Assembly (NCBI RefSeq): GCF_036699995.1
Contig: NZ_CP144906.1
Location: 2,495,001-2,559,000 of the forward strand
DNA from: Clostridium beijerinckii
GTDB taxonomy: Bacteria; Bacillota; Clostridia; Clostridiales; Clostridiaceae
Direction of reading: 5' to 3'
Length of the DNA: 64,000 nucleotides
Each line of letters starts with the position of its first letter. Positions within the stretch are counted from its first letter, which is position 1. Both the position numbers and the translations under genes were made by a program. Of this stretch, positions 7,197-60,679 are shown piece by piece. The notes below the pieces were generated by a model. It did not search any database and had not been told where the DNA came from. It was given only the letters and a program-made list of their open reading frames with translations.

Positions 7197-7241
7197 TGAT
7201 GTTTTCTAACTTGGTGACCCATAGGAGAATCGAACTCCTGA
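7197..7241. repeat. attL: 45-bp copy of the tRNA-Glu 3' end
   Basis: These 45 bases are identical, in the same orientation, to 60635-60679. They contain the last 26 bases of the tRNA-Glu gene plus its encoded CCA, here without the rest of the gene. This is the usual footprint of integration into a tRNA 3' end. Each copy is followed on the tRNA's downstream side by its own, different terminator hairpin. Confidence 0.9.
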
Positions 7242-7359
7242 GTCTAGAAATTACCAATTACATATCATTATATTTAATTATAAATATCTGTAGAATAGCT
7301 TAAATACTAGGTTGTAGCAATATGGATAATTATAACATATCATATTGATTTAGAACTCA

Positions 7360-7387
7360 GTCGGGAAAAAGTCGGGAATAATCGGGA
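7360..7387. repeat. Three TCGGGAA direct repeats inside attL
   Basis: GTCGGGAAAAAGTCGGGAA followed by ATAATCGGGAA gives three copies of TCGGGAA at 10-11 bp spacing. Two copies with the same spacing occur at 60580-60597, inside attR. They are candidate integrase arm-binding sites. Confidence 0.6.
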
Positions 7388-7444
7388 AAGTTTTATGGCG
7401 TAAATCGTTGATTATTGAAGGCATCCTACATAATAACTTGAAAA

Positions 7445-7472
7445 CTCTATTCTATTTTAAAATAGAATAGAG
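7445..7472. repeat. Perfect 28-bp palindrome
   Basis: The sequence reads identically on both strands, beginning CTCTATTCTATTTT and ending with its exact complement. The surrounding 7388-8110 holds no gene I can support, apart from a terminator-like hairpin at 7668-7703 (AATGAGGAG and CTCCTCATT, followed by TGATTTTT). Confidence 0.7.
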
Positions 7473-8110
7473 ATGAAAGGAATATGAACAAATATGATTT
7501 TTAACATATTAACATTAGCAATTATATGTTTTTTGCTAAATAATCATGAGTAATTTATTTTGATATCTCTAGAAAGGAGGAAATCCTCATCTCTTAAATT
7601 AATAAATAAATTATGAAATAAAAAGTAAAAGTAGATAATTATATTTATATACTTATCAATGGATTATAATGAGGAGTTAATATAGTGTATTGAGCTCCTC
7701 ATTTGATTTTTAACATGCCAATATATAGAGTTAGGAATTATTGAAATAAATAATGATAACAATTTATTAAAGTGGCAATAATTAAATCTATATAATAGAT
7801 ATAGCTAAATAAGTATTATCAATTAGGCAGTATAAAGAAACAAAATATAAAAATATATTTAGAATTGTTTAATGTTAGAGATATGAGTGCTTTGACGTTT
7901 ATATAATAAAGGATAGACTTTTGTATAAGGCATATGTCGATTATAATATCGATAGAAGATTGAATAAAAATATAGCATAGTGCTGTTATGATATTTAGAA
8001 ATTTGCTTATATATGTTAAAATTAACTTAATAAATTTAAATTATATAAGTAAAATTTTATTAGAGGAATAGATTACTATAAAAAATATTTTTACATGAGG
8101 GGGTGCATTA

Positions 8111-8944
8111 GTGAAGCAAATAAATTATGAAGATATGATAATGAAAAGAGCAATGGATATATTTGCAGAAGAAGGTTTGAAATTTTTTGGTATAGATAAA
8201 AAAGTAAAAGATACTGGATCTACTGAAATTGTTGTTCTTGAGATAAAGAATATGCTAATGGATTATACTTTCCTAATGGAAGATGATAGTTACATTCATT
8301 TTGAATTTCAAACTACTAACAAGGGAATTGAAGACTTAAGAAGGTTTAGAACCTATGAATCTCTCCTTAATTTTCAAACTGGTAAAGATGTTGTAACATA
8401 CGTTGTTTATTCAGGAGATATAAAAGATCCTATAAGTGAATACTATAGTGGAATAAATTCTTATAAAGTCAATGCAATATCGATGGCTAATAAGGACGGA
8501 GATGCAATTTTTAATGATATAATAAATAAAATAAATGATAAAGAAGAACTAAGCAAGCAGGATATTATATCATTAACATTTACACCAATAATGGGTGGTA
8601 AGCTTAGTAAAAGTGATAAGATAATAAATGCAATTAGAGTGGTTAAAGACATAGATAAAGATTACAGATATGACGTGGAGTCAATCCTATATGCTTTTGC
8701 AAGTAAATTTTTAGAAGGTAAAGATTTAGAAAAAGTAAGGGAGGAGATAAAAATGACTGAATTAGGTAGAAGCTTGATAAAAGAAGGAAAATTAGAAGGA
8801 AAATTAGAAGGAAAGCAAGAAAATTCAATAGAAATTGCTAAAAGAGCTATTAAAAAGGGAATGAGTGACGAATTAATCAGTGAATTAACAGAACTATCTA
8901 TTGAGCAAATACAGATAATAAGAAAAACAATTGAAACTAATTAG
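8111..8944 (+). CDS. Rpn-family recombination-promoting nuclease / PD-(D/E)XK protein
   Basis: 277 residues. The N-terminal half matches Rpn/PDDEXK-type proteins: a strand TEIVVLEIKN, then HFEFQTTNKG (E-x-Q core) and the stretch LRRFRTYESLLN, followed by YVVYSGD. The C-terminus has a short repeated LEGKLEGK segment and a helical tail (ELISELTELSIEQIQIIRKT) typical of these proteins. Family members nick or cleave DNA and are often scattered in accessory regions. The start is a GTG preceded by GAGGGGGTG. A duplicated, frameshifted C-terminus follows directly. Confidence 0.75.
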   Translation: MKQINYEDMIMKRAMDIFAEEGLKFFGIDKKVKDTGSTEIVVLEIKNMLMDYTFLMEDDSYIHFEFQTTNKGIEDLRRFRTYESLLNFQTGKDVVTYVVYSGDIKDPISEYYSGINSYKVNAISMANKDGDAIFNDIINKINDKEELSKQDIISLTFTPIMGGKLSKSDKIINAIRVVKDIDKDYRYDVESILYAFASKFLEGKDLEKVREEIKMTELGRSLIKEGKLEGKLEGKQENSIEIAKRAIKKGMSDELISELTELSIEQIQIIRKTIETN

Positions 8945-8962
8945 TATTATTGAGGAAAGTAT

Positions 8963-10917: not shown

Positions 10918-11277
10918 TTAAAAGCTTTTATCCTGATTATTAAGTTGTGAACAACGATTAAATTCCATTTCTAATACTGTGTTTACCGTATGTTTACCTA
11001 GATGATCTAAAGAATTATATTTTTTTAATAAACATTCTAATTCTTCTGATAGTTGTAAATGTGTTTTTATTTTGTTTTCATCCCATCCCATTAAAATAGA
11101 TGGAGTTGTTTCTAATATTGCTGCAAGTTTTTCGATTTTGTCAGAAGGTATATTAGAGATTACGCCACTTTCATATCTTTGAAGTGTTGGCTTACTAATA
11201 GATAATCTTTTAGAAACATCTTCTAATGTGAGATTCAATTCTAATCGTCTATTTTTGATATTTTCTTTCAAACCCAT
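10918..11277 (-). CDS. XRE-family (CI-like) phage repressor
   Basis: 119 residues. Residues 6-60 form an HTH_3 domain: IKNRRLELNLTLEDVSKRLSISKPTLQRYESGVISNIP. The C-terminal half is short and helical, without an autocleavage (LexA/Peptidase S24) domain, so derepression would need an antirepressor rather than RecA. It is divergent from the phage early genes, with about 460 bp of repeat-containing DNA between. AAGGAGG precedes the start. It is likely the lysogeny regulator of the island's phage-type module, and the BRO/ANT protein at 15413 is a candidate antagonist. Confidence 0.85.
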   Translation of the reverse strand: MGLKENIKNRRLELNLTLEDVSKRLSISKPTLQRYESGVISNIPSDKIEKLAAILETTPSILMGWDENKIKTHLQLSEELECLLKKYNSLDHLGKHTVNTVLEMEFNRCSQLNNQDKSF

Positions 11278-11735: not shown

Positions 11736-11933
11736 ATGATATTAATTAATGAGTTAAAAGGAAAGATGAGAGCAAAGGGATATACTCAGGAAAAGCTGGC
11801 AAGGGAATTAGGAATGTCTCCAAAAACTTTAGGTAATAAACTTAATAAAGGCATATTTGGTTCTAATGAAATCGATAAGATGATAAAACTATTAGATATA
11901 AAGAATCCAATAGAGATATTTTTTTATGAATAA
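11736..11933 (+). CDS. Cro-like helix-turn-helix regulator
   Basis: 65 residues, almost entirely one HTH domain: LKGKMRAKGYTQEKLARELGMSPKTLGNKLNKGIFGSNEIDKMIKLLDI. It is the size of a Cro-type repressor. AAAGGGGAG precedes the ATG. The gene is bracketed by two TTACTT-N3-AAGTAA palindromes, one at the transcription start and one directly at its stop codon, which suggests autoregulation and control of the next gene. A third copy of the site upstream of the integrase suggests it also coordinates recombination. The regulator-site pairing is inference. Confidence 0.8.
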   Translation: MILINELKGKMRAKGYTQEKLARELGMSPKTLGNKLNKGIFGSNEIDKMIKLLDIKNPIEIFFYE

Positions 11934-12051: not shown

Positions 12052-12312
12052 ATGGAGGAATTATTAAAAGAAATTTTAGTTGAATTAAGAAAAAATAGTG
12101 AAAAAGAGAATGCTGGAGATAAACTTACTTATACCCTTAAAGAGTGTTCTTATATATCAGGTATTGGTCTCAATACGTTACAAGAAGAGATTTCAAAGCA
12201 GAATTCAGATTTTCCATTCTTTAAAATAGGAAAGAAGGTGATGGTAGATAAAAAACTATTTCATCAATGGCTTGAAAATATTTCTATGGTTCACCAAGAA
12301 TTAAGAAAATAG
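12052..12312 (+). CDS. Excisionase-like small DNA-binding protein
   Basis: 86 residues with a MerR/excisionase-type winged HTH: YTLKECSYISGIGLNTLQEEISKQNSDFPFFKIGKKVMVDKKLFHQWLE. The pattern 'hypothetical helix, turn, then F-K-I-G-x-x-x-x-V' is typical of Xis/HTH_17 proteins that bend DNA at att sites. GGGAGGACAAGCT precedes the ATG. It lies at the opposite end of the island from the integrase, unusual for int-xis pairs but consistent with circularised element order. The role in excision is inference. Confidence 0.65.
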   Translation: MEELLKEILVELRKNSEKENAGDKLTYTLKECSYISGIGLNTLQEEISKQNSDFPFFKIGKKVMVDKKLFHQWLENISMVHQELRK

Positions 12313-12539
12313 TAATCTTAAATTAAAAACATAAATGTAAAATTATTTTCATACACCTTGATTTAGAATGTATGGGGATTCAACTTTTAATAAAAATGTA
12401 TAAAAAGAAAGTGAGGACTTACAAATGAATTTTAGGATTTTTAAATGTTATATAGATGTTTGTAAGTTAATTGAGTTAAACCCATCATGGAATGGTCTTG
12501 AAAGGTTTAGGCAATTTTATTTATGGGAGCGTGAAAATA

Positions 12540-13907
12540 ATGGCAGATATCAAATGGATTAAATTAGCTACTAATATGCATGATGATGAAAAGATGAAGT
12601 TAATAGATGCAATGCCTAACAGGGATACAATTCATTATGTTTGGATAAGAATACTTTTACTTGGTGGAAAACTTAATGCTAATGGAAAGGTTTTCTTATC
12701 AGAAGGGAAACCTCTCACTGCCAAAATGTTGGCTGTATTATTTTCTAGGCCTTTAGAGGATATTAAGATTGCATTAAAAGTATTATCTAACTTTGGCATG
12801 ATTGAAATAGCTTCTGATAAAGTAATTAGAATTGTGAACTGGGATAAGCATCAGAACATAGAGGGAATGGAAAGGGTTCGTGAACAAAACAGAAAAAGAG
12901 TTGAAAATCATAGAGAAAAGAAGAAAGAAGAGAAGAATGCAGCTAAAAATAATAAGGAAGAAACTCAGGAAGATAAAGTCTTAGAAGAATTTATAGATTT
13001 AGAAGAAAATCAAGATATGGATGAAAGTGTAGAATTAGAAAAAACTAATGAATTAGAACGAAAGAAAGATTACTCTAAGAATTCTACTATAGAAGAAAAC
13101 AAAGCTCTAGGTAAAAATGATATATTAGAAAATTTGGAAACTAATGAAGAGGCTTGTGGAAATACGTATATTAATGATAAAACTAATATTACTACTAGCG
13201 AAGCAGGTAATAATAGTACTGTAGAAATTATTGATAATAATGAAGATATCAGTAATAACATTTTAGAAACTGATGATAATAATTGTATTGTTACTAAAAA
13301 TAATAGTAACGTTACTCAAAATAAATGTAACGTTACAGTAACGCAGCAGAATAAGAAAGAGATGGAGAATAAGAAGAAGAATAAGAAAGAGAAAAAAGAG
13401 ATAGATAAAGATAAAAACATAGAGGGTAAAAAGAATACTGGTTTTGATATAAAGAATAAAGGCTCAGCTTGTGATGAGGACGTTAGTCAGCCGAATCTAT
13501 TTAAGAAACACAATAATACTAAAAGTGAATCAGGGGAAGAGGAGGACATAAATCTTAAAGTTTTAGAGCTTATGCATTATCATGAAAAAATAACAGGGAA
13601 GCCAGGAGGATGCGACTATGTTGCTCTTAGATCAGCTATTGATATCCATGGAGAAAAAATGGTTAAGATGGCCATGGATGTTGGGTTTGAAAAGAATTGT
13701 CCTGACATAAAGTATGCAATTGGGGTATTAAAAAACTGGAGGAGAGATGGGTATCCAGAAGATCATATGGAGGTAAAGAAAAATGGGGTTAGAAGCAATG
13801 GAAAGAGTAACACAGCAGATAAAAATGAATTTGCAGGATTCAAGCCAAAGGAACCACGAAAGCTTACAGAAGCTGAAAGAAAGAGGATTGAAGCAAACCT
13901 CATATAG
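12540..13907 (+). CDS. DnaD-like phage replisome organizer
   Basis: 455 residues. Residues 1-115 match the phage replisome organizer N-terminal domain (ADIKWIKLATNMHDDEKMKLIDAMP, then HYVWIRILLLGGKLNANG). Residues about 130-335 are a highly charged, Asn/Lys/Glu-rich linker. Residues about 338-405 form a DnaD/DnaB_2-like domain (LELMHYHEKITGKPGGCDYVALRSAI). Such proteins bind the phage origin and recruit the helicase loader. The ATG at 12540 after GGGAGCG is preferred to the upstream in-frame ATG at 12492. The linker-coding DNA contains GTAACGTTAC iterons, a candidate origin. The DnaC-like gene overlaps its 3' end by 125 bases. Confidence 0.85.
   Translation: MADIKWIKLATNMHDDEKMKLIDAMPNRDTIHYVWIRILLLGGKLNANGKVFLSEGKPLTAKMLAVLFSRPLEDIKIALKVLSNFGMIEIASDKVIRIVNWDKHQNIEGMERVREQNRKRVENHREKKKEEKNAAKNNKEETQEDKVLEEFIDLEENQDMDESVELEKTNELERKKDYSKNSTIEENKALGKNDILENLETNEEACGNTYINDKTNITTSEAGNNSTVEIIDNNEDISNNILETDDNNCIVTKNNSNVTQNKCNVTVTQQNKKEMENKKKNKKEKKEIDKDKNIEGKKNTGFDIKNKGSACDEDVSQPNLFKKHNNTKSESGEEEDINLKVLELMHYHEKITGKPGGCDYVALRSAIDIHGEKMVKMAMDVGFEKNCPDIKYAIGVLKNWRRDGYPEDHMEVKKNGVRSNGKSNTADKNEFAGFKPKEPRKLTEAERKRIEANLI
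13290..13343. repeat. GTAACGTTAC iterons within the replisome-organizer gene
   Basis: GTAACGTTAC occurs at 13306-13315 and 13327-13336, with half-sites GTTAC at 13290 and GTAACG at 13338, all within 54 bases of the linker-coding region. Phages of this type often carry the replication origin inside the initiator gene. The encoded residues (NSNVTQNKCNVTVTQQ) are low-complexity, so the DNA may be selected as sites. Confidence 0.55.
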
Positions 13908-14583
13908 GTGTGACAAATGCTGCGACACCGGATGGATACTTATTAAGCAGGAGCATATGCAACCTCTTGCTGTAGCTTGTGAATGCAGGAAAATAGAAAA
14001 GCTAAAAAGTGAATGGAAGTATTCAGGAATCAATGTTGAGCAAAGTAAACTTACTTTCTCTAGTTTTGAAATTTGGAATGAAGCGTCAAGCAAAATTAAG
14101 GATACTGCTGCAGCTTATTGTACTGAGTTTGATGAAATTAGAAACAATAGGCGCAATAGCATTTTATTATGCGGACAGGTTGGCAGCGGTAAAACGCACT
14201 GCAGCATTGCTGTTGCATTAAACTTTTTAAAACAAAGAATTAAAGTAGTGTACATGCCTTATCGTGATGTGATCACAAAGATAAAACAAAACATGATTGA
14301 TGAAGAATATTATACTAGGACAATTTCAAAGTATCAATTATGCGAGGTCCTTTTGATTGATGACCTCTTTAAAGGAAAGGTCAATGAAACCGACGTGAAT
14401 ATTATGTTTGAAATCATTAATTATAGGTACCTTAATTTTCTGCCTATAATAGTCAGCAGCGAATTTTCTATTGATAGATTATTAGCATTTGATGAAGGGG
14501 TAGCTTCAAGAATATATGAAATGTCAAAAGATTATGTAGTAGAAATTGAGAAGGATATTAGGAATAATTATAGGCTTAAGTAA
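13783..14583 (+). CDS. DnaC-like helicase loader ATPase
   Basis: 266 residues. An N-terminal helical region is followed by a zinc-type cluster (YRCDKCCDTGWI and CECRK, about residues 42-70), then an AAA+ core: Walker A CGQVGSGKTH and Walker B VLLIDDLF. This is the DnaC/DnaI loader family that places replicative helicase at the origin. The ATG at 13783 has GGAGGT seven bases upstream, so a 125-base overlap with the organizer gene in another frame is likely real. A TTG at about 13892 is a poorer alternative. Phage replication pair with the preceding gene. Confidence 0.85.
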   Translation: MGLEAMERVTQQIKMNLQDSSQRNHESLQKLKERGLKQTSYRCDKCCDTGWILIKQEHMQPLAVACECRKIEKLKSEWKYSGINVEQSKLTFSSFEIWNEASSKIKDTAAAYCTEFDEIRNNRRNSILLCGQVGSGKTHCSIAVALNFLKQRIKVVYMPYRDVITKIKQNMIDEEYYTRTISKYQLCEVLLIDDLFKGKVNETDVNIMFEIINYRYLNFLPIIVSSEFSIDRLLAFDEGVASRIYEMSKDYVVEIEKDIRNNYRLK

Positions 14584-14697
14584 ATTTACAATGCACACAG
14601 CACAATTCACAATAAACAATTACAGAGTGAAAATTCGCATTAAAATGAATTTTTTTGAGAATTAATCAAAATTAAGTTATGAAGGGAAGTTATTTAA

Positions 14698-14940
14698 ATG
14701 AAAGCATCAGGGATAGTAAGAAATCTTGATAATTTAGGGAGAGTTGTAATACCAAAGGAAATAAGAAAGGTATTAGGAATTAATGAAGGGGATTCAATCG
14801 AAATAACTAAGGTTAATAATGATATAGTTTTGAGGAAATACAGTAAAGGATGCATCTTTTGTGGAAGTGATAAAGATATAAGTGAATTTAATAATGTGCT
14901 TGTTTGTAGTGGCTGCAGAAAGATTTTAGGACAGAATTAG
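14698..14940 (+). CDS. AbrB/SpoVT-family regulator with C-terminal zinc ribbon
   Basis: 80 residues. Residues 1-48 form a swapped-hairpin AbrB domain (SGIVRNLDNLGRVVIPKEIRKVLGI), the DNA-binding fold of AbrB, SpoVT and MazE. The C-terminal CIFCGSDKDISEFNNVLVCSGC is a two-CxxC zinc ribbon. Short AbrB-like proteins with this ribbon are common in clostridial prophages. GAAGGGAAG precedes the ATG. The next gene begins one base after the stop, so they are co-translated. Confidence 0.85.
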   Translation: MKASGIVRNLDNLGRVVIPKEIRKVLGINEGDSIEITKVNNDIVLRKYSKGCIFCGSDKDISEFNNVLVCSGCRKILGQN

Positions 14941-14941
14941 A

Positions 14942-15334
14942 ATGAACAGGCCGAAAGATTTACCTAACCGCCTGGAATGCGCATACTGCAAGAGGAATTA
15001 TAAACATGGTGGAGAATGTCAGGGAAAAAGCACAAATAGAAATGAAGATGGCTGTCTTTATTTTAGCATGGATGAAAAAGGATGTATAAGAAATATAGAT
15101 CAAAGTATACCTTTTAATCTATATAGTGATATTCCACCAGTTGGTATGTGGAGAGATGGATGGACAATATATAATCAAGATACAAAAATCAGAATAAATA
15201 AGATATATGCTTTAAGCTGGAATGAAAGAAAAGGTTTGTTGTATGTTAAATGTAACTTTGATTATTTTATTAATGAGTTTAGTGAGAATTATAAAAAAGA
15301 AACTAATAAACCAAATCTAAAGGTTATTAAATGA
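14942..15334 (+). CDS. Hypothetical Cys-rich phage-type protein
   Basis: 130 residues of unrecognised family. The N-terminus CAYCKRNYKHGGECQGKSTNRNEDGCLYF has five cysteines in a zinc- or metal-binding-like spacing. The remainder is mixed alpha/beta with no signal or membrane segment. It starts directly after the AbrB-like gene (one base between), with AGGA inside that gene's 3' end as the ribosome site. Its position between the replication genes and the antirepressor suggests a phage accessory function. Nothing more specific can be supported. Confidence 0.65.
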   Translation: MNRPKDLPNRLECAYCKRNYKHGGECQGKSTNRNEDGCLYFSMDEKGCIRNIDQSIPFNLYSDIPPVGMWRDGWTIYNQDTKIRINKIYALSWNERKGLLYVKCNFDYFINEFSENYKKETNKPNLKVIK

Positions 15335-15412
15335 GTCACATGAAGAAATGAATATTTTGAATTATTGATTAAGGATTAAAAGGATAAAATTTTAAAAAAG
15401 GGGATAATCAAA

Positions 15413-16168
15413 ATGGGAGGTTTACTAATTTTCAAGAATGAAAGATTTGGAGAAATAAGATGGGTAAAAATTAATAATAAAGATTATGCTGTTGGGATTG
15501 ATATAGCAAAAGCTTTAGGATATAAAAAGCCTAATGATGCAATTTCAAGACACTGTAGAGGGTCCGTGAAACACGGAGTAGGGGTAGTAACGGGGAAAAG
15601 AAAAGATGGAACTGATGCTATCCAAAATGTAGAAATGAGTGTAATTCCTGAAGGAGATATATATCGCTTAGTCGCTAAATCTGAATTACCAGGTGCAGAG
15701 AAATTTGAAGCCTGGATTTTTGATGAGGTGTTACCTTGCATAAGGAAAACAGGGATGTATGCTACAGATGAATTATTAGATAATCCAGATTTACTTATTG
15801 CTGCAGCTACTAAGTTAAAAGAAGAGAGAAAAGCAAGGTTGGAAGCCGAAAATAAAGTAAAATTACTAGAACCTAAAGGGGAATTTTATGATGATGTTGC
15901 AGGCTCTAAAGATTCTATTGAAATGGGCCATGTTGCAAAGGTTCTTGGCATTAAAAGAATGGGAAGAAATAGACTATTTTCATTATTAAGAGAAAAGAAA
16001 GTCTTGGATAAAAATAATATTCCTTATCAGCAGTTTGTAGACATGAGGTATTTTCGAGTATTAGAGCAAAAATATACAGTACCAAATGGAGAGACTAAAA
16101 TCAATATAAAAACAATGGTATTTCAAAAAGGAATAGAATTTATAAGGAAAAAGATTAATGAGCCATGA
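15413..16168 (+). CDS. Phage antirepressor (BRO-N plus ANT/KilA-C)
   Basis: 251 residues. Residues 4-110 match BRO-N (IRWVKINNKDYAVGIDIAKALGYKKPNDAISRHC, then EMSVIPEGDIYRLVAKSELPGAEKFEAWIFDEVLP). Residues 135-245 match the ANT/KilA-C domain (MGHVAKVLGI, GRNRLFSLLREKKVLDKNNIPYQQFVDMRYF). Antirepressors bind phage repressors lacking autocleavage, which suits the XRE repressor at 10918. AAAAAGGGGATAATCAAA precedes the ATG. It is the last gene of the recognisable phage-type early region. Confidence 0.9.
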   Translation: MGGLLIFKNERFGEIRWVKINNKDYAVGIDIAKALGYKKPNDAISRHCRGSVKHGVGVVTGKRKDGTDAIQNVEMSVIPEGDIYRLVAKSELPGAEKFEAWIFDEVLPCIRKTGMYATDELLDNPDLLIAAATKLKEERKARLEAENKVKLLEPKGEFYDDVAGSKDSIEMGHVAKVLGIKRMGRNRLFSLLREKKVLDKNNIPYQQFVDMRYFRVLEQKYTVPNGETKINIKTMVFQKGIEFIRKKINEP

Positions 16169-16580: not shown

Positions 16581-16805
16581 CTAAGCATTTGCTAAGCTAG
16601 AAGATTCATTAATAAAATAATCTCTAGTATTAGCTTCCATAACACCTTTAATTGCATCTGCGACAGCATAGACATTCTCAGGTGTAGCATCTGTTTTTAT
16701 ACCTGAGAAAGTTTTCTTGGTATAAATTGGGTCCCCAGCTTTATCTAAAGCTTTTTGAACCTCGATACTAAGAGAAACTGAGTCGATAGTTTTAGTTACA
16801 GCCAT
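16581..16805 (-). CDS. DUF1659-family protein
   Basis: 74 residues: starts MAVTKTIDSVSLSIEVQKAL and contains TKKTFSGIKTDATPENVYAVADAI, which matches DUF1659 as recalled. The protein is small, soluble and of unknown function. The ATG at 16805 follows AAGGAGG; longer in-frame starts would include this site. With the downstream DUF2922 gene it forms a two-gene operon. These families often occur with YvrJ and a UviA-like sigma factor; here that partner module is elsewhere in the window (0.3 and 45 kb). Confidence 0.8.
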   Translation of the reverse strand: MAVTKTIDSVSLSIEVQKALDKAGDPIYTKKTFSGIKTDATPENVYAVADAIKGVMEANTRDYFINESSSLANA

Positions 16806-16939
16806 AGTTTTAACCTCCTTCATTTTGTTTTCATAAATGATATATGGATAAATGCTTAACATTACATAAATAGATAAAATTTATTTGTTTTTTATGAACA
16901 AAAGAACTAAAACAGATTAAAGATATTGAAAGGATGAAT

Positions 16940-17656
16940 ATGAAAAGTGAATGTTTCATCGAAGGACAAATTAGTATATTTGATTTACCTGCTATAGAAG
17001 TTATAAAACCCAAGAAAATTATTATTAAAGAAGAAACTAAAGAAGTGGATAAGTTTTATGCAATCACTAGATTATATTCACAAAGTTGTAGCAGAATAGT
17101 TAAGACACTGAGTGGCGCAGTGTTAGTTGAATTAGACGATAAAACTTTGTATTTTAATGCAAGTGGCATAAATGAGTTTAGTCTACCTAAAGATGTGGGA
17201 ATCATGCCTGGAGAAGAAATACTTATTGCGAATAGTGATAAGAAAATAAATGAAACACAAAAACAAAAGTTAGAGGCTCTTAAGCCTAAACAATATATCA
17301 AAAGAAAAGGTGATGCTAATTTAATAATACCTGGAGAAAAAACTATAGTGATAAATCCAAAAGGATGGATATTAGAATATAATCAAAAGCCAAGTTATCA
17401 TTCAAATGAACTAATTAATACGGAATTTAATCTTGAAATTAATGAGGTGGATGATAAAAAGAATAAAATAGATCTTGAAACGAATGATATAGAATTTAAG
17501 ATTGACGATGAGGTTAATATTGAATATCAAGGCATAAAGACCGTTGGGAAGGTTGTTAGGGTATATAATAATGGAGAAACCGTGAATGTGAAATGGGATG
17601 GAAAACAAACAGCTTTTTATTATAAGAATGTAAGTAAGATAAATAATCCTAAATAA
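16940..17656 (+). CDS. Hypothetical protein, possibly phage-derived
   Basis: 238 residues. The N-terminus MKSECFIEGQISIFDLPAI resembles the short conserved opening of several phage or mobile-element proteins. The C-terminal 55 residues (KIDDEVNIEYQGIKTVGKVVRVYNNGETVNVKWDGKQTAFYYKNV) look like a Tudor/SH3-like beta-barrel. No enzymatic motif is seen. The ATG at 16940 has GAAAGG at good spacing; the ATG at 16934 is too close. It is monocistronic or leads to the 45-aa membrane protein 70 bases downstream. Confidence 0.65.
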   Translation: MKSECFIEGQISIFDLPAIEVIKPKKIIIKEETKEVDKFYAITRLYSQSCSRIVKTLSGAVLVELDDKTLYFNASGINEFSLPKDVGIMPGEEILIANSDKKINETQKQKLEALKPKQYIKRKGDANLIIPGEKTIVINPKGWILEYNQKPSYHSNELINTEFNLEINEVDDKKNKIDLETNDIEFKIDDEVNIEYQGIKTVGKVVRVYNNGETVNVKWDGKQTAFYYKNVSKINNPK

Positions 17657-17726
17657 ATGATTTCAGTTGATTAAGCTTGTATAAATTAGGCAATTATTAA
17701 GATAGAAAGAATTTAGGAGGATCTTT

Positions 17727-21640: not shown

Positions 21641-21652
21641 ATATTTTAAAGA

Positions 21653-51111: not shown

Positions 51112-51115
51112 TTAA

Positions 51116-51152
51116 TAGGCACATTCCTTTGCTATTTTATTTCATGTGCCTA
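51116..51152 (+). promoter_or_regulatory. Intercistronic hairpin between hsdS and hsdR
   Basis: TAGGCACAT and ATGTGCCTA form a 9-bp perfect stem with a 19-base loop, with no T-run. It ends just before the hsdR ribosome site (GAGGGGG) and could reduce or delay HsdR translation relative to the methylase. Confidence 0.5.
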
Positions 51153-51168
51153 AATGAGGGGGATGTTT

Positions 51169-54100
51169 ATGTCAACTAATTTTGGATTCCTTGAATCAAT
51201 TGAAGAATATAAGCTTTTTGCATCAGCATGTATTGAAGCAGAAAAAGTTCTGAATTATTCTCCTGCTATGTCTGTCGCAGGTAGCAGAAAGGCATTAGAA
51301 TTGGCTGTAAGATGGGTGTATTCAGCTGATAATACTATGAAGATGCCTTATAAAAATAATTTACAATCTCTAGTGCATGAACCAACTTTTCGATTTGCAG
51401 TTAATAGAGAAACTTGGAGTAAAATTCCTTACATAATTAATATAGGTAACCTTGGAATTCATACAAATAAGGCTGTTACAAAAGGAGATGCAATTTTATC
51501 TTTATCTTTTTTATTTGAATTTGTTCAGTGGATAGATTATTGTTATGGATCTGATTATGAAGAAAGAAAATTTAGTGAAACTTTATTAAGTGAATCAGTA
51601 GGCGATTTGAGATTAAAAGATACAAATGAAATGGAGAAGATATTAGAAGAGAAAGATTCTAAGATTAATAAACTTCTTGAACAGATTTCTAAAATTAGCG
51701 GACAATTAACTAAGAATAAAGATATACATAAGGAAGAACGTAATTTTACACCTGAAGATATTTCAGAATATGAAACACGAAAAAAATACATTGATGTAGA
51801 TTTAAGATTATTAGGCTGGAAATTCAAACAAGGCGCGTATAGGGATTGTGTTGAGAGAGAAGTTCCTGTTAAGGGTATGCCTTCAGAGCTGGGATCTGGA
51901 AATGGATTTGTCGATTATGTCTTATATGGAAAAGATGGTACACCACTTGCAATAATTGAAGCTAAGCGGACAACAAAAGATGCAAATAAAGGAAAACATC
52001 AAGCCTGGCTTTATGCAAATTGTATTGAGGAAATGACAGGACATAGGCCAATTATATTTAATACTAATGGTTTTGAAACCTATATTTGGGATGATAGTGT
52101 TTCACCTCAAAGACAGGTTAGTGGAATATTTTCAAAGGACGATTTGCAAAAATTATACAATAGAAGAAATTTAAGAAAAAACTTAGATAAGATTGAAATA
52201 GATGATAAGACTACAGATCGGTATTATCAGAAAGAAGCTATACGTGCAGTTTGTAATAATATAGATGAGGGGCATCAAAAATCACTATTAGTAATGGCAA
52301 CCGGTACAGGAAAAACAAGAACTGCTTCCAGTCTTACTGATGTATTGTCAAGAGGAGGATACGTTACTAATATATTATTTTTAGCTGATAGAAAAGCTTT
52401 AGTAAGACAAGCTAAAAATGATTTTAAAAATTATCTTCCACACATGTCTCTTTGCAATTTAGTAACAAACAAAGATGATAAAAATGCAAGAATTGTATTT
52501 TCAACTTATCCAACTATGTTAAATTCAATAGATACTGTGAAAAATGAAGATGGGAATAGATTATTTACCCCTGCTCATTTTGATTTGATCATAATCGATG
52601 AAGCTCACAGAAGCATATTTAAAAAATATAGAGCAATATTTGAGTATTTTGATGCTTATATTGTTGGATTAACAGCTACTCCTAAAACAGAAGTACATTC
52701 TAATACTTATGATTTCTTTGAAGTAGCTCCAGGAGTTCCGACATATGCTTATGATTATGATACAGCAGTTAACAAAGATAAAGTACTTGTTCCTTATCAT
52801 AATATTGAGGTTGGAACTAAATTTTTAGGAGAAGGCATTAATTATGATGAACTATCAGAAGATGATAAAGATAGGTATGAAGAGGATTTTACTGATGAGG
52901 ATGGAGAAATTCCTGATAAAATACCAGCACCTGAAATAAATAAATTTATTTTTAATCAAAGTACTGTAGATATGGTTATTAATGATTTAATGACCAATGG
53001 AATAAAAGAAGCAAATGGTAATCGTATTGGTAAAACAATAATATTTGCTCAAAATAAAAAACACGCAGATTATATAGTAGAGAGATTTGACAAATTATAT
53101 CCAAAGTTACCAGCAGGATTTTGTCAAAGAGTTATATGTGATGATGACTATGCTCAAGATATAATTGATAGATTTAAAGATCACAAAAAAGAACCTCATA
53201 TTGCAGTATCTGTAGATATGTTAGATACAGGCATTGATGTCCCTGAAATTGTTAATATTATATACTTTAAAAAAATTTATTCTAAAACTAAGTTTTGGCA
53301 AATGCTTGGTAGAGGAACTCGTTTAAGACAGGATTTGTTTGGGCAAGGAGAGCATAAAACAGAATTTTATATATTTGATTACTTAGGAAATTTTGAATTT
53401 TTTAGACAAAATAAAAATGGTATAGAGCCTAGTGTAAGCCAATCACCAGTAGCAAGTATATTTTCTAAGAAAGTAAAATTAATCTTTAATCTGCAAGATA
53501 GTGCTTTTTGTGATGATGATTATCAAAACTTAAGAACTACTTTAATAGATGATGTTGTAAGTCAGATAAATAATCTTAGTATAGAAAGAGTAGATGTAAA
53601 ATTAAGACTGAGATATGTAGAAAAGTATAAGAATAGAGAATCTTTTACTTCTCTATCTGATAGTGATAGGAAAAGCTTAATAGATAATATTTCTAATTTA
53701 GTTGTTACAGATGAGACTGATGATAAGGCAATTAATTTTGATAATTTAATGTATGGCTTAATGGTTTCTCAAATAGAAGGAACAAAAGTCTTTAATAGAA
53801 TAAAGAAGGATGTTATAAAGAAAGCTACGAATCTCTTAACCACAAGAACAACAATTCCACAAGTTAAAGCTAAAATACCATTATTGCAAAGAGTAATAGA
53901 TGATGAATTTTGGAATGGCAGCGACATTCTTAATTTTGAAAAAATTAGAGTTGAACTAAGAGACTTGATGAAATTTGTAGATTATGGAGACGGAAGAAAG
54001 CCAGTCTATACAAATTTAACTGATTTTGAGACAAGCAGAACAGAATGCAAGGAAATGGATGCAGCTTATGAATTTGAAGATTATAAGCTTAAAGTAAATC

Positions 54101-54540
54101 GCTATATAGAAGAAAATAAAAATAATATTGCTATTCATAAATTGCATAATAATATTCCGTTGACTTCTACAGATTATAAGTCTTTAGAGAATATACTTAC
54201 AGGTGAACTTGGTACTAAGGAAGATTATGAAAAACAATTTGGAAATACTCCATTTGGTTTACTAGTTAGAAAAGTTGCAAAATTAGACTATGAAGCTGCA
54301 ACTAAAGCATTTTCTAAGTTTATTAATGAACAAGCTCTTAATCAAAATCAGATAGTATTTGTAAAAAGTATTATTGATTATATAGCTGAAAATGGATATC
54401 TAGAAAATGTAGCAGCTCTAATAAGAGCACCTTTTGATAAACCAGATAAATTTGTTAAATTATTTGATGTTGAAAAACAGAGAGAGATTGCTGAAATTGT
54501 TAATGGGGTTAAGGATAATGCTACTAAGATTGTTGGGTAA
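51169..54540 (+). CDS. hsdR: Type I restriction endonuclease subunit
   Basis: 1123 residues. The N-terminus (about 1-130) resembles DUF4145 (FASACIEAEKVLNYSPAMSVAGSRKALELAVRWVY). A PD-(D/E)XK nuclease follows, with D249 and E264-A-K266 (IIEAK). The SF2 motor has Walker A GTGKT at 379-383, DEAH from 477, then GLTATP and DTGIDVPEIVN. A C-terminal helical domain binds the methylase complex. It translocates and cleaves unmethylated DNA. The ATG at 51169 (MSTNFGF) is set by GAGGGGGATG. Complete and intact. Confidence 0.95.
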   Translation: MSTNFGFLESIEEYKLFASACIEAEKVLNYSPAMSVAGSRKALELAVRWVYSADNTMKMPYKNNLQSLVHEPTFRFAVNRETWSKIPYIINIGNLGIHTNKAVTKGDAILSLSFLFEFVQWIDYCYGSDYEERKFSETLLSESVGDLRLKDTNEMEKILEEKDSKINKLLEQISKISGQLTKNKDIHKEERNFTPEDISEYETRKKYIDVDLRLLGWKFKQGAYRDCVEREVPVKGMPSELGSGNGFVDYVLYGKDGTPLAIIEAKRTTKDANKGKHQAWLYANCIEEMTGHRPIIFNTNGFETYIWDDSVSPQRQVSGIFSKDDLQKLYNRRNLRKNLDKIEIDDKTTDRYYQKEAIRAVCNNIDEGHQKSLLVMATGTGKTRTASSLTDVLSRGGYVTNILFLADRKALVRQAKNDFKNYLPHMSLCNLVTNKDDKNARIVFSTYPTMLNSIDTVKNEDGNRLFTPAHFDLIIIDEAHRSIFKKYRAIFEYFDAYIVGLTATPKTEVHSNTYDFFEVAPGVPTYAYDYDTAVNKDKVLVPYHNIEVGTKFLGEGINYDELSEDDKDRYEEDFTDEDGEIPDKIPAPEINKFIFNQSTVDMVINDLMTNGIKEANGNRIGKTIIFAQNKKHADYIVERFDKLYPKLPAGFCQRVICDDDYAQDIIDRFKDHKKEPHIAVSVDMLDTGIDVPEIVNIIYFKKIYSKTKFWQMLGRGTRLRQDLFGQGEHKTEFYIFDYLGNFEFFRQNKNGIEPSVSQSPVASIFSKKVKLIFNLQDSAFCDDDYQNLRTTLIDDVVSQINNLSIERVDVKLRLRYVEKYKNRESFTSLSDSDRKSLIDNISNLVVTDETDDKAINFDNLMYGLMVSQIEGTKVFNRIKKDVIKKATNLLTTRTTIPQVKAKIPLLQRVIDDEFWNGSDILNFEKIRVELRDLMKFVDYGDGRKPVYTNLTDFETSRTECKEMDAAYEFEDYKLKVNRYIEENKNNIAIHKLHNNIPLTSTDYKSLENILTGELGTKEDYEKQFGNTPFGLLVRKVAKLDYEAATKAFSKFINEQALNQNQIVFVKSIIDYIAENGYLENVAALIRAPFDKPDKFVKLFDVEKQREIAEIVNGVKDNATKIVG

Positions 54541-54672: not shown

Positions 54673-57600
54673 ATGAAAATATTATTTTTACATTTAAGCG
54701 ATATTCACATAACAGATAAAGCTAATATAGAGCCTAAAAAGATTGATGGAATAATTAGTGCGCTTGAGATGATTAAGAATTTTGATGAATGCGTTATTAT
54801 TTGTTCAGGAGATTTAACAAATAGGAGCAAGGTGAATGAATATAAGAATATAAAGAGGTTGTTAGGAAGTATTTTACATAGAATAAAAGAGTCTTATTTA
54901 AAAGATAAATTTATAAAGTTGTTATTAGTACCTGGAAATCATGATGCTGATTTTGAAGGAATTACAAGGACAGGAATAGATATTCAAAAATACTATAAGG
55001 ATAATAAAATTCAGGAAAATATAGAATTAGAAATAAAGATGTTTGAAAATTTTTTTGATTATTCAAAAACTAATAGATGTTTTTTGAGTGATAAGATATT
55101 AGATAAATCAGTACAAAGGTTTGGAAATTATAAAATACAATTTAATTTAATAAATACTGCTTTATTTTCGACACTAAAACCTGATGATAAGCAATTACAC
55201 TATTTTCCGAAAGAAAAATTAAGCTCTCTTTTTAAGGAAGAAAATGTAGATATAGCAATAACAGTTATGCATCATAGTACAGAATGGTTTCAATGGGAAA
55301 GTAAAACGCAATTAGAGAATGTACTACACAATAACTCATCAATTATATTTGTTGGACATGATCATGATTTGAAAACAGATAGGATAAATTCTGGAAATAA
55401 AAGTGAGACATTTATTTGTGCAGGTGGAATATTTAATAATAATGATATTACTGATGCATGCCAATTTAATGCGATGATTCTTGATACGTGCTTAAATGCT
55501 GTTGATATTTATGAATTTTGGTGGGATGAGAAAAATACTTTGTTTGATTGTAATAAATTGTACGAAGAAGAAAAACTTGATATGAAGAATAAGAAGCTAG
55601 TTCCAAATGAGAAGTTTTTAGAAAATTTTAAACAAGATGAGAAAAGAAAGATAATAAGAGAAAATGATTTTACAAAATATTTTGTGTTTCCTAAAATGAT
55701 TGTTGAGCATGAAAGTGAATATGTAACTACAAAGGAAATAAATAATGAGGATGACTTCTTTAAAATACTATATGACAAAAAGAGCATTAATATTGTAGGT
55801 GGAGATATTTATGGAAAAACTACTGTATTAAAGAATATTTACATATCATTAATTAATAAAAAAATACCATTATTCTTTTCGGTTATTGATATGGATGGAA
55901 ATAGAATTGATAAGATTGTTAAAAGAGTTTTTGAAGATCAATATAGTGATAAAAATGTTGAATATGTTAAATATCAGCAAATAAGTAAAACTGAAAAAGT
56001 TGCTATTATAGATGATTTTGATTTAATAAAAAGTGATGGGAGAAAAAAACAATTAATTGATTTGTTTAGAACAGAATTTGAATATATAATAATATCAACG
56101 TCAAAACAAGTAGAAGTTGATGTTTTAAATGCTGTTCGTAATGAGATTAATAATAAAGAAAAGTTTTACATATTAAAAATAGATAATTTTTATTTAAATA
56201 AGAGATCTGAATTAATTAAAAAAGTCTGTGAAGCAACGCAACAAAATAGTACTGAAAATACAATCAATATTGATAGTATTATTAATAAAAGTATAAAAAA
56301 TAATATAGAATTATTCGATTTAAATCCTGATTTTATAATTCAGTATACACAATTTATTTTACAAAATATAAATTATCAAGATCAGAAAGGAGAACAGTTT
56401 TTAAATCAAGTATTTATAGCCAATATTACTACATCTTTAATAGAAAATACAACTAATGAAAAAATTGATGAAATGATTATACTTCTTGAAGAAATTGCAT
56501 ATTATATGCATTTTAATAAAAAAGAATTAATAGGTTTAGATGAAGTAGAAACTATTATAAAAAGATTTCAAAAAGAATTTGGAGGAGAGGTAAAACCAAC
56601 TGAGTTAATTGATGTTGCTTGTAAGGCAAAAATAGTAAAACAACCTAATGGACGTTTTGCAATTAGATTCTGTAACAAAAATCAACTCGCATTTTTTATT
56701 GCACGTTCTTTAAATAGAAGATTTAATGTATTTGGAACAATGGAAGATATTAAAAGTATTTTAAAGAATATTTGTTTTGGTATAAATGATAATGTGATAT
56801 TATTTTTATCTTATATAACTAGTAATCCACAGATTATTATGTTCATTCATAAATATGCAGAAGATTTAATGAGTGTCTGGAATGAAATGGATATAGATGA
56901 TGGAAATATTGAATTTTTATCTAAAGTACCGGATTTAGGGAAAGTAGCTCCTCCTAAAACTGGAGATAAAGAAAAAAGTGATAAAAGAGAAGAAAAACAT
57001 GAAGAAAATATAAAAGGAAATCAAATATTAGAATGTGTAAATATATATGATTATGATGAAAGTAAAATAGATGAACCACAATATAAAATCATACGTGCAG
57101 TAAAGTATACAGAAATGATCTGCAAAGCATTGCCAGCATTGTCTATAATTTTAACAAATAGTAATAAAGAGAAACTAGTACAGAGTATATATGAATATCC
57201 TAACAAAATAATATATAATATGTTAAAACCAATAGACGATAAATATGATGAACTAATAGCAGAATTAAGGGAGTTTGCAAATTTAAATAATTCAACAAAT
57301 GAAAATGATGAGGAATTAACAGAAGAAGATATAAACATTATCCTAAAAAATATTGCACTTATTTTAGTTTTAAGTATATATGATAGGTTTGCATATCTTT
57401 CAACTAGTAAAAAAAGCATTCCATTTCTTGAAAAATATAATTTATCTAATTCAAATTATAAATTATTTAGTCTTTTAGTTAAAGTAAATAGCAATGACAT
57501 AGACGAAGTTATTAGAAAAGCAGAAAAGGTATTTGATAATAGTAAAAACAAAGATGTGAGATGGATGATTAGAACAATTATCAAAAAGGAATTGGTAAAT

Positions 57601-57711
57601 AATATAAAAATTGATCAAGGAAAAAGACAAAAATTACTTAACAAGTATTTTTCAGCTGATGAACAAAAAGAATTTTTAATTGAGCAATATAAAAAAATTA
57701 ATTTAAAATAA
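54673..57711 (+). CDS. Calcineurin-like phosphoesterase fused to a STAND-like P-loop NTPase
   Basis: 1012 residues. Residues 1-280 carry a complete metallophosphoesterase set: D10-x-H12, G46-D47, G88-N89-H90-D91, H200-H201 and G228-H229-D230-H231. Residues about 370-520 form a P-loop domain with Walker A G376-GDIY-G381-K382-T383 and Walker B AIIDDFD (444-450). The remaining 490 residues are helical, Asn/Lys/Glu-rich, and probably sense a target or oligomerise. The pattern of effector, NTPase switch and helical sensor is that of STAND-type immune proteins, directly downstream of hsdMSR. A phosphodiesterase triggered by infection is the favoured guess. AGAAGGTAAAAT precedes the ATG. Confidence 0.75.
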   Translation: MKILFLHLSDIHITDKANIEPKKIDGIISALEMIKNFDECVIICSGDLTNRSKVNEYKNIKRLLGSILHRIKESYLKDKFIKLLLVPGNHDADFEGITRTGIDIQKYYKDNKIQENIELEIKMFENFFDYSKTNRCFLSDKILDKSVQRFGNYKIQFNLINTALFSTLKPDDKQLHYFPKEKLSSLFKEENVDIAITVMHHSTEWFQWESKTQLENVLHNNSSIIFVGHDHDLKTDRINSGNKSETFICAGGIFNNNDITDACQFNAMILDTCLNAVDIYEFWWDEKNTLFDCNKLYEEEKLDMKNKKLVPNEKFLENFKQDEKRKIIRENDFTKYFVFPKMIVEHESEYVTTKEINNEDDFFKILYDKKSINIVGGDIYGKTTVLKNIYISLINKKIPLFFSVIDMDGNRIDKIVKRVFEDQYSDKNVEYVKYQQISKTEKVAIIDDFDLIKSDGRKKQLIDLFRTEFEYIIISTSKQVEVDVLNAVRNEINNKEKFYILKIDNFYLNKRSELIKKVCEATQQNSTENTINIDSIINKSIKNNIELFDLNPDFIIQYTQFILQNINYQDQKGEQFLNQVFIANITTSLIENTTNEKIDEMIILLEEIAYYMHFNKKELIGLDEVETIIKRFQKEFGGEVKPTELIDVACKAKIVKQPNGRFAIRFCNKNQLAFFIARSLNRRFNVFGTMEDIKSILKNICFGINDNVILFLSYITSNPQIIMFIHKYAEDLMSVWNEMDIDDGNIEFLSKVPDLGKVAPPKTGDKEKSDKREEKHEENIKGNQILECVNIYDYDESKIDEPQYKIIRAVKYTEMICKALPALSIILTNSNKEKLVQSIYEYPNKIIYNMLKPIDDKYDELIAELREFANLNNSTNENDEELTEEDINIILKNIALILVLSIYDRFAYLSTSKKSIPFLEKYNLSNSNYKLFSLLVKVNSNDIDEVIRKAEKVFDNSKNKDVRWMIRTIIKKELVNNIKIDQGKRQKLLNKYFSADEQKEFLIEQYKKINLK

Positions 57712-58871: not shown

Positions 58872-58886
58872 TTACTTAGTAAGTAA
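58872..58886. promoter_or_regulatory. TTACTT-N3-AAGTAA operator upstream of the integrase
   Basis: TTACTTAGTAAGTAA is the third copy of the palindrome flanking the 65-aa regulator at 11736. It lies 470 bp before the integrase start in otherwise gene-free DNA, possibly at a distal integrase promoter. Confidence 0.6.
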
Positions 58887-59356
58887 AATATGTTGCATAT
58901 TGAGTAAAATATAAGTATAATATATTTAATTTGTAAATGTTTTACAAATATAAAATTACTGATGATTGGATAAGCATGCAGGGGATATAAGAAGTTTATA
59001 TAGTGGATCTATTGTTGTAGTATGAATAAATTATTTATTTAATTTATATTTGTTTTGAATTATAAAAGTGTAATGATTTAAATTTAATAAAAATTGAAGT
59101 GTTGATGGTGCTTTTGGTAGTTTTTATCATGAGTTTTAGAATATATTACTCAAATATATGAGAAAATATATCTGTAGGATAAATTAAATAATTAATAATG
59201 TACTATAAAAGACAACCGTATTAATAAACATTTTAATATTTCATATTACAAGATTATTCTCTGTGCTGAGTTCAAAAATTTATATCCAGTGAATATGTAG
59301 AATTTATTTTGAGCAATAGTATATTTTTGAGAATATTTAAAAGGGATGTGATTAAT

Positions 59357-60526
59357 ATGGCAGTAAAAACTAACTATAAGAAAAATGGTACTAATTATTT
59401 TAGAGTAAGTGCTGTTTTAGGAACAGATAGCAAGGGAAAAAGAATACTTAAAGAGTTTTATGGTAAAAGCAAATCTGATGCTGAGGAGAAAAAGAGAGAG
59501 TATCTGGAAGGTATAAAAAATGGATTAAATATAGATACGAAGAGAGTTCTTCTAGGAGAGTTAATACATACTTGGCTATTTGAGACTATTAGGGTTTCGG
59601 ATAGAATAAAGCCTACTACGTTTGAAAAGTATGAGGGATTATACAGGAATTATGTAAAAGACAGCCCTTTGTATTCAATTAAATTATCAGAATTAAAAGC
59701 ACTCCAAGTTCAAAGATATTATAACGTTTTATCAGACCTTGGAAAAAGCAGAAATCTTATTGAAAACTTAAATAAACTCTTGAAACAATTTTTTAATTAT
59801 GCAGTAGATGAAGGGTATTTAAGCAAGAATCCTTGTCTTGGTAAAAAGATAGTTATTCCTGGAGAAAAAAAGCCAAGAAAAGAAGTTCAGCATTTTAGTG
59901 ATGAAGAAATAGAGATTTTAGTATCCAACTTAAAAGATAATAGGTATAGGGAGTTAATACTATTATCACTTGGAACAGGATTAAGACGTGGGGAGCTTCT
60001 GGCATTAACTTGGGAAGACATTGATTTGAAGAATAAAATCGTAAAGGTTAATAAATCTTTAGCTAAAGTGTATATAATAGCAGGTGATGGTTCAAAGGAA
60101 AGAAAGCAAATAATTCAAGTACCAAAAACTCGAGGGTCAATAAGAGAAGTATCTTTTCCTGATAATCTAACGTCAATATTTAAAGATATAAGGATAAAAC
60201 AAAGAAGAGATAGATTAAAATGTGGAGAATCATATGAGGTATCTGATCATGTCTTTACAACCTCTTCTGGAAGCTTAATAGATGTAACAAATCTATCTCA
60301 TGCATGGGAACATTTATTAAAGAAATGTAAATTACCACATAAAAAGTTTCATGCATTAAGACATACTTTTGCAACAAAGTTATTTGAAAACGAAGTAGCT
60401 TTAAAAACTGTTTCAGAACTTTTGGGACATAGTTCTATAGATATGACTGCAAATACTTATACTCATGTTATTCCAAAGCAAAAAAGTGATGCAGTTGAAA
60501 AATTAAATTATATATTTAATTTATAA
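59357..60526 (+). CDS. int: Site-specific tyrosine recombinase (phage-type integrase)
   Basis: 389 residues. An N-terminal AP2-like arm-binding domain (KKNGTNYFRVSAVLGTDSKGKRILKEFYGKSKSDAEEKK) is followed by a SAM-like core-binding domain (about 60-165). The catalytic domain has Arg in TGLRRGELLALTWEDID, His-x-x-Arg in FHALRHTFATKLF, then GHSSIDMTANTYTHV with the nucleophilic Tyr. It recombines the att sites at tRNA-Glu. The ATG at 59357 follows AAAGGGATG; an in-frame upstream start lacks a site. It ends 108 bp before attR, which is the classic arrangement. Confidence 0.95.
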   Translation: MAVKTNYKKNGTNYFRVSAVLGTDSKGKRILKEFYGKSKSDAEEKKREYLEGIKNGLNIDTKRVLLGELIHTWLFETIRVSDRIKPTTFEKYEGLYRNYVKDSPLYSIKLSELKALQVQRYYNVLSDLGKSRNLIENLNKLLKQFFNYAVDEGYLSKNPCLGKKIVIPGEKKPRKEVQHFSDEEIEILVSNLKDNRYRELILLSLGTGLRRGELLALTWEDIDLKNKIVKVNKSLAKVYIIAGDGSKERKQIIQVPKTRGSIREVSFPDNLTSIFKDIRIKQRRDRLKCGESYEVSDHVFTTSSGSLIDVTNLSHAWEHLLKKCKLPHKKFHALRHTFATKLFENEVALKTVSELLGHSSIDMTANTYTHVIPKQKSDAVEKLNYIFNL

Positions 60527-60578
60527 AATATTTGCAGGTAATTTAAAAAAATAATAGTAAAACATAATAAAAAACTTA

Positions 60579-60598
60579 GTCGGGAAAAAGTCGGGAAA
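60579..60598. repeat. Two TCGGGAA direct repeats inside attR
   Basis: G-TCGGGAAAAAG-TCGGGAA lies between the integrase stop and the tRNA. It matches the spacing of the three copies at 7360-7387 inside attL, making it a candidate arm-type integrase site. Confidence 0.6.
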
Positions 60599-60634
60599 AT
60601 AGAAAAAACACCAACAATTTAGAACTCTAAATGC

Positions 60635-60679
60635 TGATGTTTTCTAACTTGGTGACCCATAGGAGAATCGAACTCCTGA
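60635..60679. repeat. attR: 45-bp repeat spanning the tRNA-Glu 3' end
   Basis: Identical to 7197-7241. It includes the CCA end and T-arm of tRNA-Glu plus 15 bases downstream. On the island side the sequence continues into a terminator hairpin that serves the tRNA (minus strand, about 60605-60640). Confidence 0.9.

Follow-up and report, generated by a model that had tools for sequence, protein, structure and literature searches.

Introduction

Hybrid cluster proteins (Hcp) reduce nitric oxide or hydroxylamine and are usually regarded as core housekeeping enzymes of anaerobes against nitric oxide. Islands and prophages that are targeted to tRNA genes by tyrosine integrases typically use the tRNA 3' end as their core, with the integrase gene adjoining it and paired arm-like repeats. 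We analysed here a window of 64,000 nucleotides of the Clostridium beijerinckii genome (bases 2,495,001 to 2,559,000 of a single contig of 5,552,291 bp; coordinates without a contig name are those of the window) in which three hcp genes lie between two copies of a tRNA-Glu 3' end. Our preferred reading, which we hold to be probably right, is that 7197–60679 is a tRNA-Glu integrase island and that its part 17863–35268 is likely a recently exchanged cassette with a predicted function in nitric oxide and hydroxylamine detoxification. We infer both the transfer and the function of this cassette.

Among the closest described systems are clusters of hcp with a regulator. The study of Rodionov et al. 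(2005; PMC1274295) gives GTAACnnnnGTTAC as the HcpR2 consensus in anaerobes. The locus analysed here resembles the HcpR2 regulon in that hcp stands beside a CRP/FNR regulator and that a perfect GTAACnnnnGTTAC precedes hcp1. It also resembles the frdX-hcp-hcpR locus of Clostridioides difficile (PMC12915319), in which the regulator adjoins hcp and the role is nitrosative-stress defence; the passage on the latter locus, however, names frdX-hcp with hcpR only, and the words "mobile" and "operon" are absent from the main text of that article.

Results

A nearly identical cassette in three genomes

The genome to which the window belongs (G000) was compared with relatives, among them G059, G080, G033, G026, G060, G069, G027, G031, and G068. 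The stretch 17863–35268, 17.4 kb long with an insertion sequence and about 15.8 kb without it, was nearly identical in G000, G059, and G080 and had sharp limits. Outside hcp1, hcp3, and the insertion sequence, G000 differed from G059 at 6 of 12,390 columns and from G080 at 6 of 12,389, and G059 differed from G080 at 4 of 12,389. The intergenic columns were no exception (4 of 4,663 differed from G059 and 4 of 4,663 from G080), which makes purifying selection an improbable cause of the identity. The surroundings told another story. Near the tRNA, the chromosomal DNA of G059 was 97% identical over 1661 bp, and two pieces from G080 were 84% and 74% identical; a 4-kb chromosomal stretch was 95–97% identical in G059 and 81% over its first 1.5 kb in G080; and the island modules flanking the cassette were 81.4–90.4% identical between G080 and G000. 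Judging from these alignments, a recent move of the cassette from one species, and from one island, to another is likely.

Alternatively, the 53-kb island could be a decayed prophage carrying hcp genes as ordinary passengers, mostly by vertical descent, in which case the cassette would not be a unit of exchange. The phage-type integrase, repressor, replisome organiser, antirepressor, and endolysin-type amidase of the island, as well as the location of G000 and G059 elements at the same locus, fit such an origin. However, no head, tail, or terminase family was recovered among the 20 island proteins scanned with PHROGs, and 6 differences in 12,390 columns are hard to reconcile with vertical inheritance when other parts of the island and chromosome differ by about 3% or more; we regard this explanation as quite unlikely. 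Still further down in probability, indeed barely credible, is an ancestral cassette lost in G033 and others, with its identity maintained by strong selection or frequent conversion. Related hcp/hcr/gapN clusters do exist elsewhere in G027, G068, and C. frigidicarnis, but the orthologous proteins of these species are 78–95% identical, and the intergenic DNA of the cassette is almost as identical as the remainder.

Among 68 genomes of the genus, G000 included, a cassette reductase with 100% identity was present in three, G000, G059, and G080. The cassette of G059 lies within the same tRNA-Glu array as that of G000. In G033, a near relative whose assembly has about 50 contigs and whose core array was examined in part, we found three cores and nothing matching the cassette reductase; its three hcp matches lay outside any cassette. 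The original prediction had named the presence or absence of the 53-kb block as a whole among related strains as a check, and the core array of G033 without a match to the reductase goes some way with this. The island ends hold (see below), but what matters most here is not the whole block but the shorter cassette within it.

The nearly identical block of G000 and G059 extends beyond the cassette, from 16715 to about 39,425. As for a transposon-like end signature, the cassette limits exhibited only an 11-bp AT-rich inverted match. A dispersed palindrome (35224–35343) marks the right limit; its 32-nt arms are 91% complementary and its fold has a z-score of -7.36. Whole or partial copies were present in five of the six genomes searched, and these copies keep the arms and have variable loop lengths.

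Genes and predicted function of the cassette

The cassette genes are on the plus strand unless stated otherwise. They start with hcp1 (18703–20406; TIGR01703, 772.5 bits, cut-off 360.8), followed by a CRP/FNR regulator of the HcpR type with six conserved cysteines (20568–21281; PF00027, PF13545), a DUF2249 protein (21407–21640; PF10006), a rubredoxin (21905–22066; NF045768, 104.6 bits, cut-off 90), and hcp2 (22361–24019; TIGR01703, 719 bits). Next come an NAD(P)H-flavin reductase resembling the reductase domain of flavohemoglobin (Hmp type; 24287–25060), a GapN-type NADP glyceraldehyde-3-phosphate dehydrogenase (25093–26559; PDB 1euh, 594.7 bits), a flavodoxin (26699–27115; TIGR01753, 155.4 bits, cut-off 123), and, on the minus strand, hcp3 (27232–28878; TIGR01703, 742.6 bits). 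We thus recovered the three hcp genes with their regulator and the GapN gene, all of which had been named in the original prediction.

The flavin reductase was also considered as Hcr, an assignment that we rejected: it reached 77.5 bits with NF007964 (Hcr-type NADH oxidoreductase, cut-off 383) and matches the reductase half of flavohemoglobin. The eleven best PDB matches of the GapN-type protein were all GapN (594.7–578.9 bits), the best other match having 324.4 bits. It reached no NCBIfam cut-off among the best 25 of 45 matches, and with NF040869, which is named as the archaeal type, it scored 401.2 bits for a cut-off of 780.

In an alignment of the regulator with 13 proteins picked from 120 listed, the cysteines C5, C8, C9, C12, C17, and C115 were kept in all 14 sequences, a pattern that would fit an iron-sulfur sensor. 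A predicted operator of the HcpR2 type, GTAACGTGTGTTAC (18579–18592, plus strand), is located 124 bp ahead of hcp1. No other perfect GTAACnnnnGTTAC occurs in the window, and 20 block shuffles gave a mean of 0. Judged from position, a perfect GTAACnnnnGTTAC also precedes hcp1 in G068, G027, and C. frigidicarnis and the chromosomal hcp1 of G000; none was found in the 20 kb around the chromosomal hcp3 and crp genes of G000. With an HcpR-type regulator adjoining hcp and GTAACnnnnGTTAC upstream, the locus has the features expected of an HcpR2 regulon, as far as sequence can tell.

The insertion sequence (29078–30728, plus strand; DDE transposase 29242–30564, PF13701) coincides with breaks in the alignments with the two other cassette copies, which lack it. 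In G000 it is located about 200 bp upstream of hcp3, possibly within the promoter region of this gene. The right part of the cassette (30894–34900, plus strand) contains a lipoprotein, polysaccharide-deacetylase pieces, a YkuD L,D-transpeptidase, and small open reading frames (ORFs). The lipoprotein/polysaccharide-deacetylase pieces (30894–31619) are in separate frames in all three copies, so that this gene looks broken.

A second location in G080

The element that contains the cassette in G080 is located on contig C85 and has 20-bp repeats at 37314 and 84784. The latter repeat is inside the 3' end of rlmD (the gene passes the RlmD cut-off of TIGR00479 with 322 bits) and is adjoined by a tyrosine integrase (C85:83539–84699). 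No tRNA was found in C85:40001–100000, and the tRNA-Glu match of G080 was on contig C10. A third copy of the 20-mer, with two mismatches, is present at C85:22537, so the left limit of the element could lie further out. G000 has a single match to the 20-mer, with one mismatch and not in an rlmD frame in the 3 kb examined, from which we conclude nothing.

The G080 genome, from a second species, was binned from a metagenome (coverage 4.45), and its cassette could be an assembly artefact derived from a G000/G059-like strain in the sample, leaving only the exchange between G000 and G059 as real. Low coverage in a metagenome-assembled genome and homologous flanking modules would both favour such mis-joining. 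It would nevertheless require two joints on one 206-kb contig, and the right limit is within a palindrome whose loop differs. On the left side there is a 97% tier unlike both other genomes: at 16715–17862, G000 and G059 are the same but 33 of 1147 columns set G080 apart, which speaks against simple chimerism. We consider an artefact unlikely, and the G000/G059 half of the exchange argument is independent of G080.

Likely traffic between cassette and chromosomal hcp genes

Of the six hcp loci of G000, the cassette accounts for three. The differences between cassette copies concentrate in the two genes that have close relatives on the chromosome, hcp1 and hcp3: G000 and G059 differ at 25 columns in hcp1 and 30 in hcp3, and G000 and G080 at 1 and 15, respectively. 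In hcp1 of the G059 cassette, 17 of the 25 private single-nucleotide polymorphisms (SNPs) agree with the chromosomal hcp1 of G059, and 8 of the 12 private to the G000 cassette hcp3 agree with the chromosomal copy of G000. Both sets appear as gene conversion would leave them. The private changes of the G080 cassette (one in hcp1, three in hcp3) were patternless. The chromosomal hcp3 of G059 (C1:3431586–3433231) is split into two frames; hcp3 is whole in the G059 cassette.

In phylogenetic trees, the cassette hcp1 copies clustered with the chromosomal copy of G000 (support 0.997), and cassette hcp3 branched beside the G000 and G059 copies, apart from the gene of G080 itself. This placement suggests that the transfer was likely into the G080 lineage, although conversion could blur the direction.

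Island ends and the tRNA-Glu array

The 45-bp attL core (7197–7241) is an exact match to the attR core (60635–60679) in the 3' end of a tRNA-Glu (CTC; 60650–60724, minus strand; ARAGORN, Rfam RF00005), and a tyrosine integrase (59309–60526, plus strand; PF00589, 101.3 bits; phrog_1, 1e-76) adjoins the right core. Allowing up to 12 mismatches in 45, the core was found at these two places only in the 120 kb searched, which comprise the window with 40 kb on its left and 16 kb on its right. In the same 120 kb, AGTCGGGAA occurs exactly four times (7359, 7370, 60578, and 60589), as one pair inside each end (7354–7378 and 60573–60597, plus strand, 96% identical). These pairs, predicted integrase arm sites, resemble those bound by one integrase, so that we took both ends as belonging to a single element of 53,483 bp. 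The perfect repeat, the adjoining integrase, and the paired repeats on which the island had originally been proposed all withstood this scrutiny.

When the two flanks were joined at the core and aligned to 13 tRNA-Glu regions of relatives, the alignment was unbroken at the tRNA-Glu of G059 (95.6% of 665 columns, 199 bp left of the core), G026 (83.6% of 642 columns, 181 bp), G060 (83.5% of 558 columns, 97 bp), and, over a shorter stretch, G069 (79.8% of 253 columns, 104 bp). These four have the order of an empty site, which should be read with caution in G059, where further cores lie left of the joint. The alignments to the nine other regions reached at most 68 bp left of the core, indicating a likeness confined to the vicinity of the tRNA.

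A core search with up to three mismatches in 14 genomes recovered at least two cores in five of them (two in G000, three in G059, three in G033, two 64 kb apart in G027, and two 7.7 kb apart in G031) and one copy each in G029, G060, and G067. No core was found in the six others; these do have tRNA-Glu-like matches, so the core pattern is uninformative for them.

The DNA left of the window and the stretch 281–3485 belong to a second, related element, which has replication and sigma/amidase modules in common with the island. Position 7197 is thus a junction within a tandem array rather than the border of untouched chromosome. The island predicted at tRNA-Glu is borne out by its matched ends and by the empty site in relatives, but its left edge must be understood in this sense. 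From its sequence, the tRNA-Glu site appears to be a hot spot that has taken up insertions in tandem. A 3-kb module (YvrJ, unknown, sigma factor, amidase) occurs once outside the island (382–3459) and once within it (45084–48176), with about 92% identity, and more diverged copies occur left of the window.

Rfam recovered only tRNA and a cobalamin riboswitch in the window. The riboswitch (62426–62677) is just beyond the island and precedes a gene that we take to be cobalt chelatase-like. A perfect 545-bp tandem duplication (L016:13605–14691, genome 2572605–2573691) is located some 14 kb to the right of the window.

Island contents outside the cassette

Among the 52 called ORFs of the island, 9 small or minor ones were scanned in none of the libraries; the PHROGs set of 20 proteins and the Pfam set of 30 overlap. 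The conserved left-end gene (8111–8944, plus strand) encodes a transposase-like protein (weak match to transposase phrog_3300, 2.3e-6), presumably of the Rpn/PD-(D/E)XK type, which shares 91% amino acid identity with a G031 protein adjoining the same core. It is followed by an Xre-type repressor (10918–11277, minus strand; helix-turn-helix judged by eye) with a near-identical copy in the left element, a small phage-type regulator (11736–11933, plus strand; phrog_3, 1.3e-8), a Tn916-Xis-like candidate excisionase (12052–12312, plus strand; PF09035, 27.1 bits, cut-off 22.9), and a phage-type replication/regulation module (12492–16168, plus strand; PF09681, PF01695, PF04014, Bro-N/ANT). Members of this module are a replisome organiser, a DnaC/IstB-like ATPase, an AbrB/MazE-like protein, the ORF at 14942, and an antirepressor. 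The left shoulder of the cassette (16581–17864) comprises a DUF1659 gene on the minus strand and, on the plus strand, a phrog_15215 gene (16940–17656) and a small membrane ORF (17727–17864).

Right of the cassette, a transposase pair with helix-turn-helix and rve domains (43236–44593), which we assume to be IS3-like, is located between small ORFs and the module repeated in the left element (45114–48205; YvrJ, the unknown phrog_24840, a sigma factor on the minus strand, and an amidase on the plus strand). Beyond it, the type I restriction locus noted in the original prediction was recovered with hsdM, hsdS, and hsdR as open frames (48447–54540, plus strand), next to a metallophosphatase/NTPase-like candidate defence protein (54673–57711, plus strand; PF00149; PADLOC PDC-S60, 7e-16). 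In the place of this defence block, G059 has a TIR protein with thymidylate synthase and kinase genes, and G080 a different type I system with AbiEii. Judged by gene content, the elements of G000, G059, and G080 have a similar general plan and different defence genes.

We found no capsid, tail, head, packaging, or terminase genes among the proteins scanned with PHROGs or Pfam, and no relaxase or type IV secretion family among those scanned with Pfam, the 9 unscanned ORFs lying outside both statements. A complete prophage was rejected for want of structural and packaging genes among the scanned proteins, and a conjugative element for want of relaxase and type IV secretion families among the 30 Pfam-scanned ones. 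An integrase together with a replication module, with structural genes absent among the scanned proteins, would also fit a satellite of the phage-inducible chromosomal island (PICI) type, which by definition is further induced by a helper phage.

Discussion

We propose that tRNA-Glu is the site at which the integrase would integrate and release the island, aided by the Tn916-Xis-like protein. Such islands would be built alike, with phage-type replication genes on one flank and YvrJ/sigma/amidase genes on the other, and homologous recombination within these common flanking modules would pass the cassette from element to element, perhaps favoured by the palindrome at 35224–35343. After arrival, cassette hcp1 and hcp3 would likely swap sequence with chromosomal hcp genes by gene conversion. 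HcpR would sense nitrosative stress and then switch on the Hcp enzymes, which would be fed by the flavin reductase, rubredoxin, and flavodoxin. GapN enzymes yield NADPH, and this one would supply it here.

Several observations weigh against this proposal. No excised circle was seen. The original prediction had named, as its refutation, relatives with the hcp cluster at the same locus but neither island repeats nor integrase; G059 shows half of this, having the repeats and no PF00589 integrase in its array, so that its island may be stuck. G080 being a low-coverage metagenome bin, its contig may be chimeric. For hcp3 of the G059 cassette, the 18 private SNPs fit G060 best (11), the partial hcp3 of G059 itself is not among the best five matches, and gene conversion by its own copy does not clearly explain this set. 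Looser GTAACnnnnGTTAC sites in the window, 2 with at most one mismatch and 26 with at most two, were as frequent as in the shuffles (means 2.2 and 29.45), and since the cassette has no further perfect HcpR site, one HcpR regulon for its whole gene set is unsupported. Finally, no IMG/VR contig had a relative of the cassette HcpR, and plasmids and phages yielded only single hcp or short matches. The cassette query matched only hcp genes in plasmid records, at 76–78% in 3 records, and gave one 286-bp match in a single phage record.

More tentatively, and with more doubt than confidence, we suggest that a self-contained cassette circulates among clostridial islands with different integrases and sites, swaps via flanking modules and palindrome, and trades with resident hcp genes, thereby renewing a core redox-defence family from a mobile pool. 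If hcp/HcpR/GapN sets do ride islands and change hosts, nitrosative-stress tolerance would be a selectable mobile trait, like the neighbouring defence genes. It would also be a direct example of sequence passing between copies of one metabolic gene on mobile elements and on the chromosome.

Comparison with known systems

Mobile carriage of an hcp cluster had seemed unfamiliar in the original prediction. We found no report of an hcp cassette common to integrative elements in the open-licence PubMed Central literature, where absence is weak evidence; related clusters are nonetheless known in other clostridia. The cluster of C. frigidicarnis (L093) has the same gene set (hcp1, hcr, gapN, fld, DUF2249, rubredoxin, and crp; 78–93% protein identity) but differs in gene order and has one hcp locus within the 20.8 kb compared. 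In contrast to the HcpR2 regulon (PMC1274295), the locus described here lies on an integrative island and combines three hcp genes with GapN and a reductase of the flavohemoglobin type; the passages of that study on the regulon do not mention mobile carriage, and gapN is absent from its main text.

The island has the hallmarks of tRNA-targeted elements in its tRNA-containing end repeats, adjoining integrase, and empty site in relatives. It resembles them further in the tRNA 3' end used as core, the arm-like pairs, and the Tn916-Xis-like protein. It departs from them in that structural and conjugation genes were not found among the scanned proteins and that its cassette is common to an element at another site. 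HcpR-hcp clusters are already known, and the part for which we found no report in that literature is the sharing of a cassette between integrative elements.

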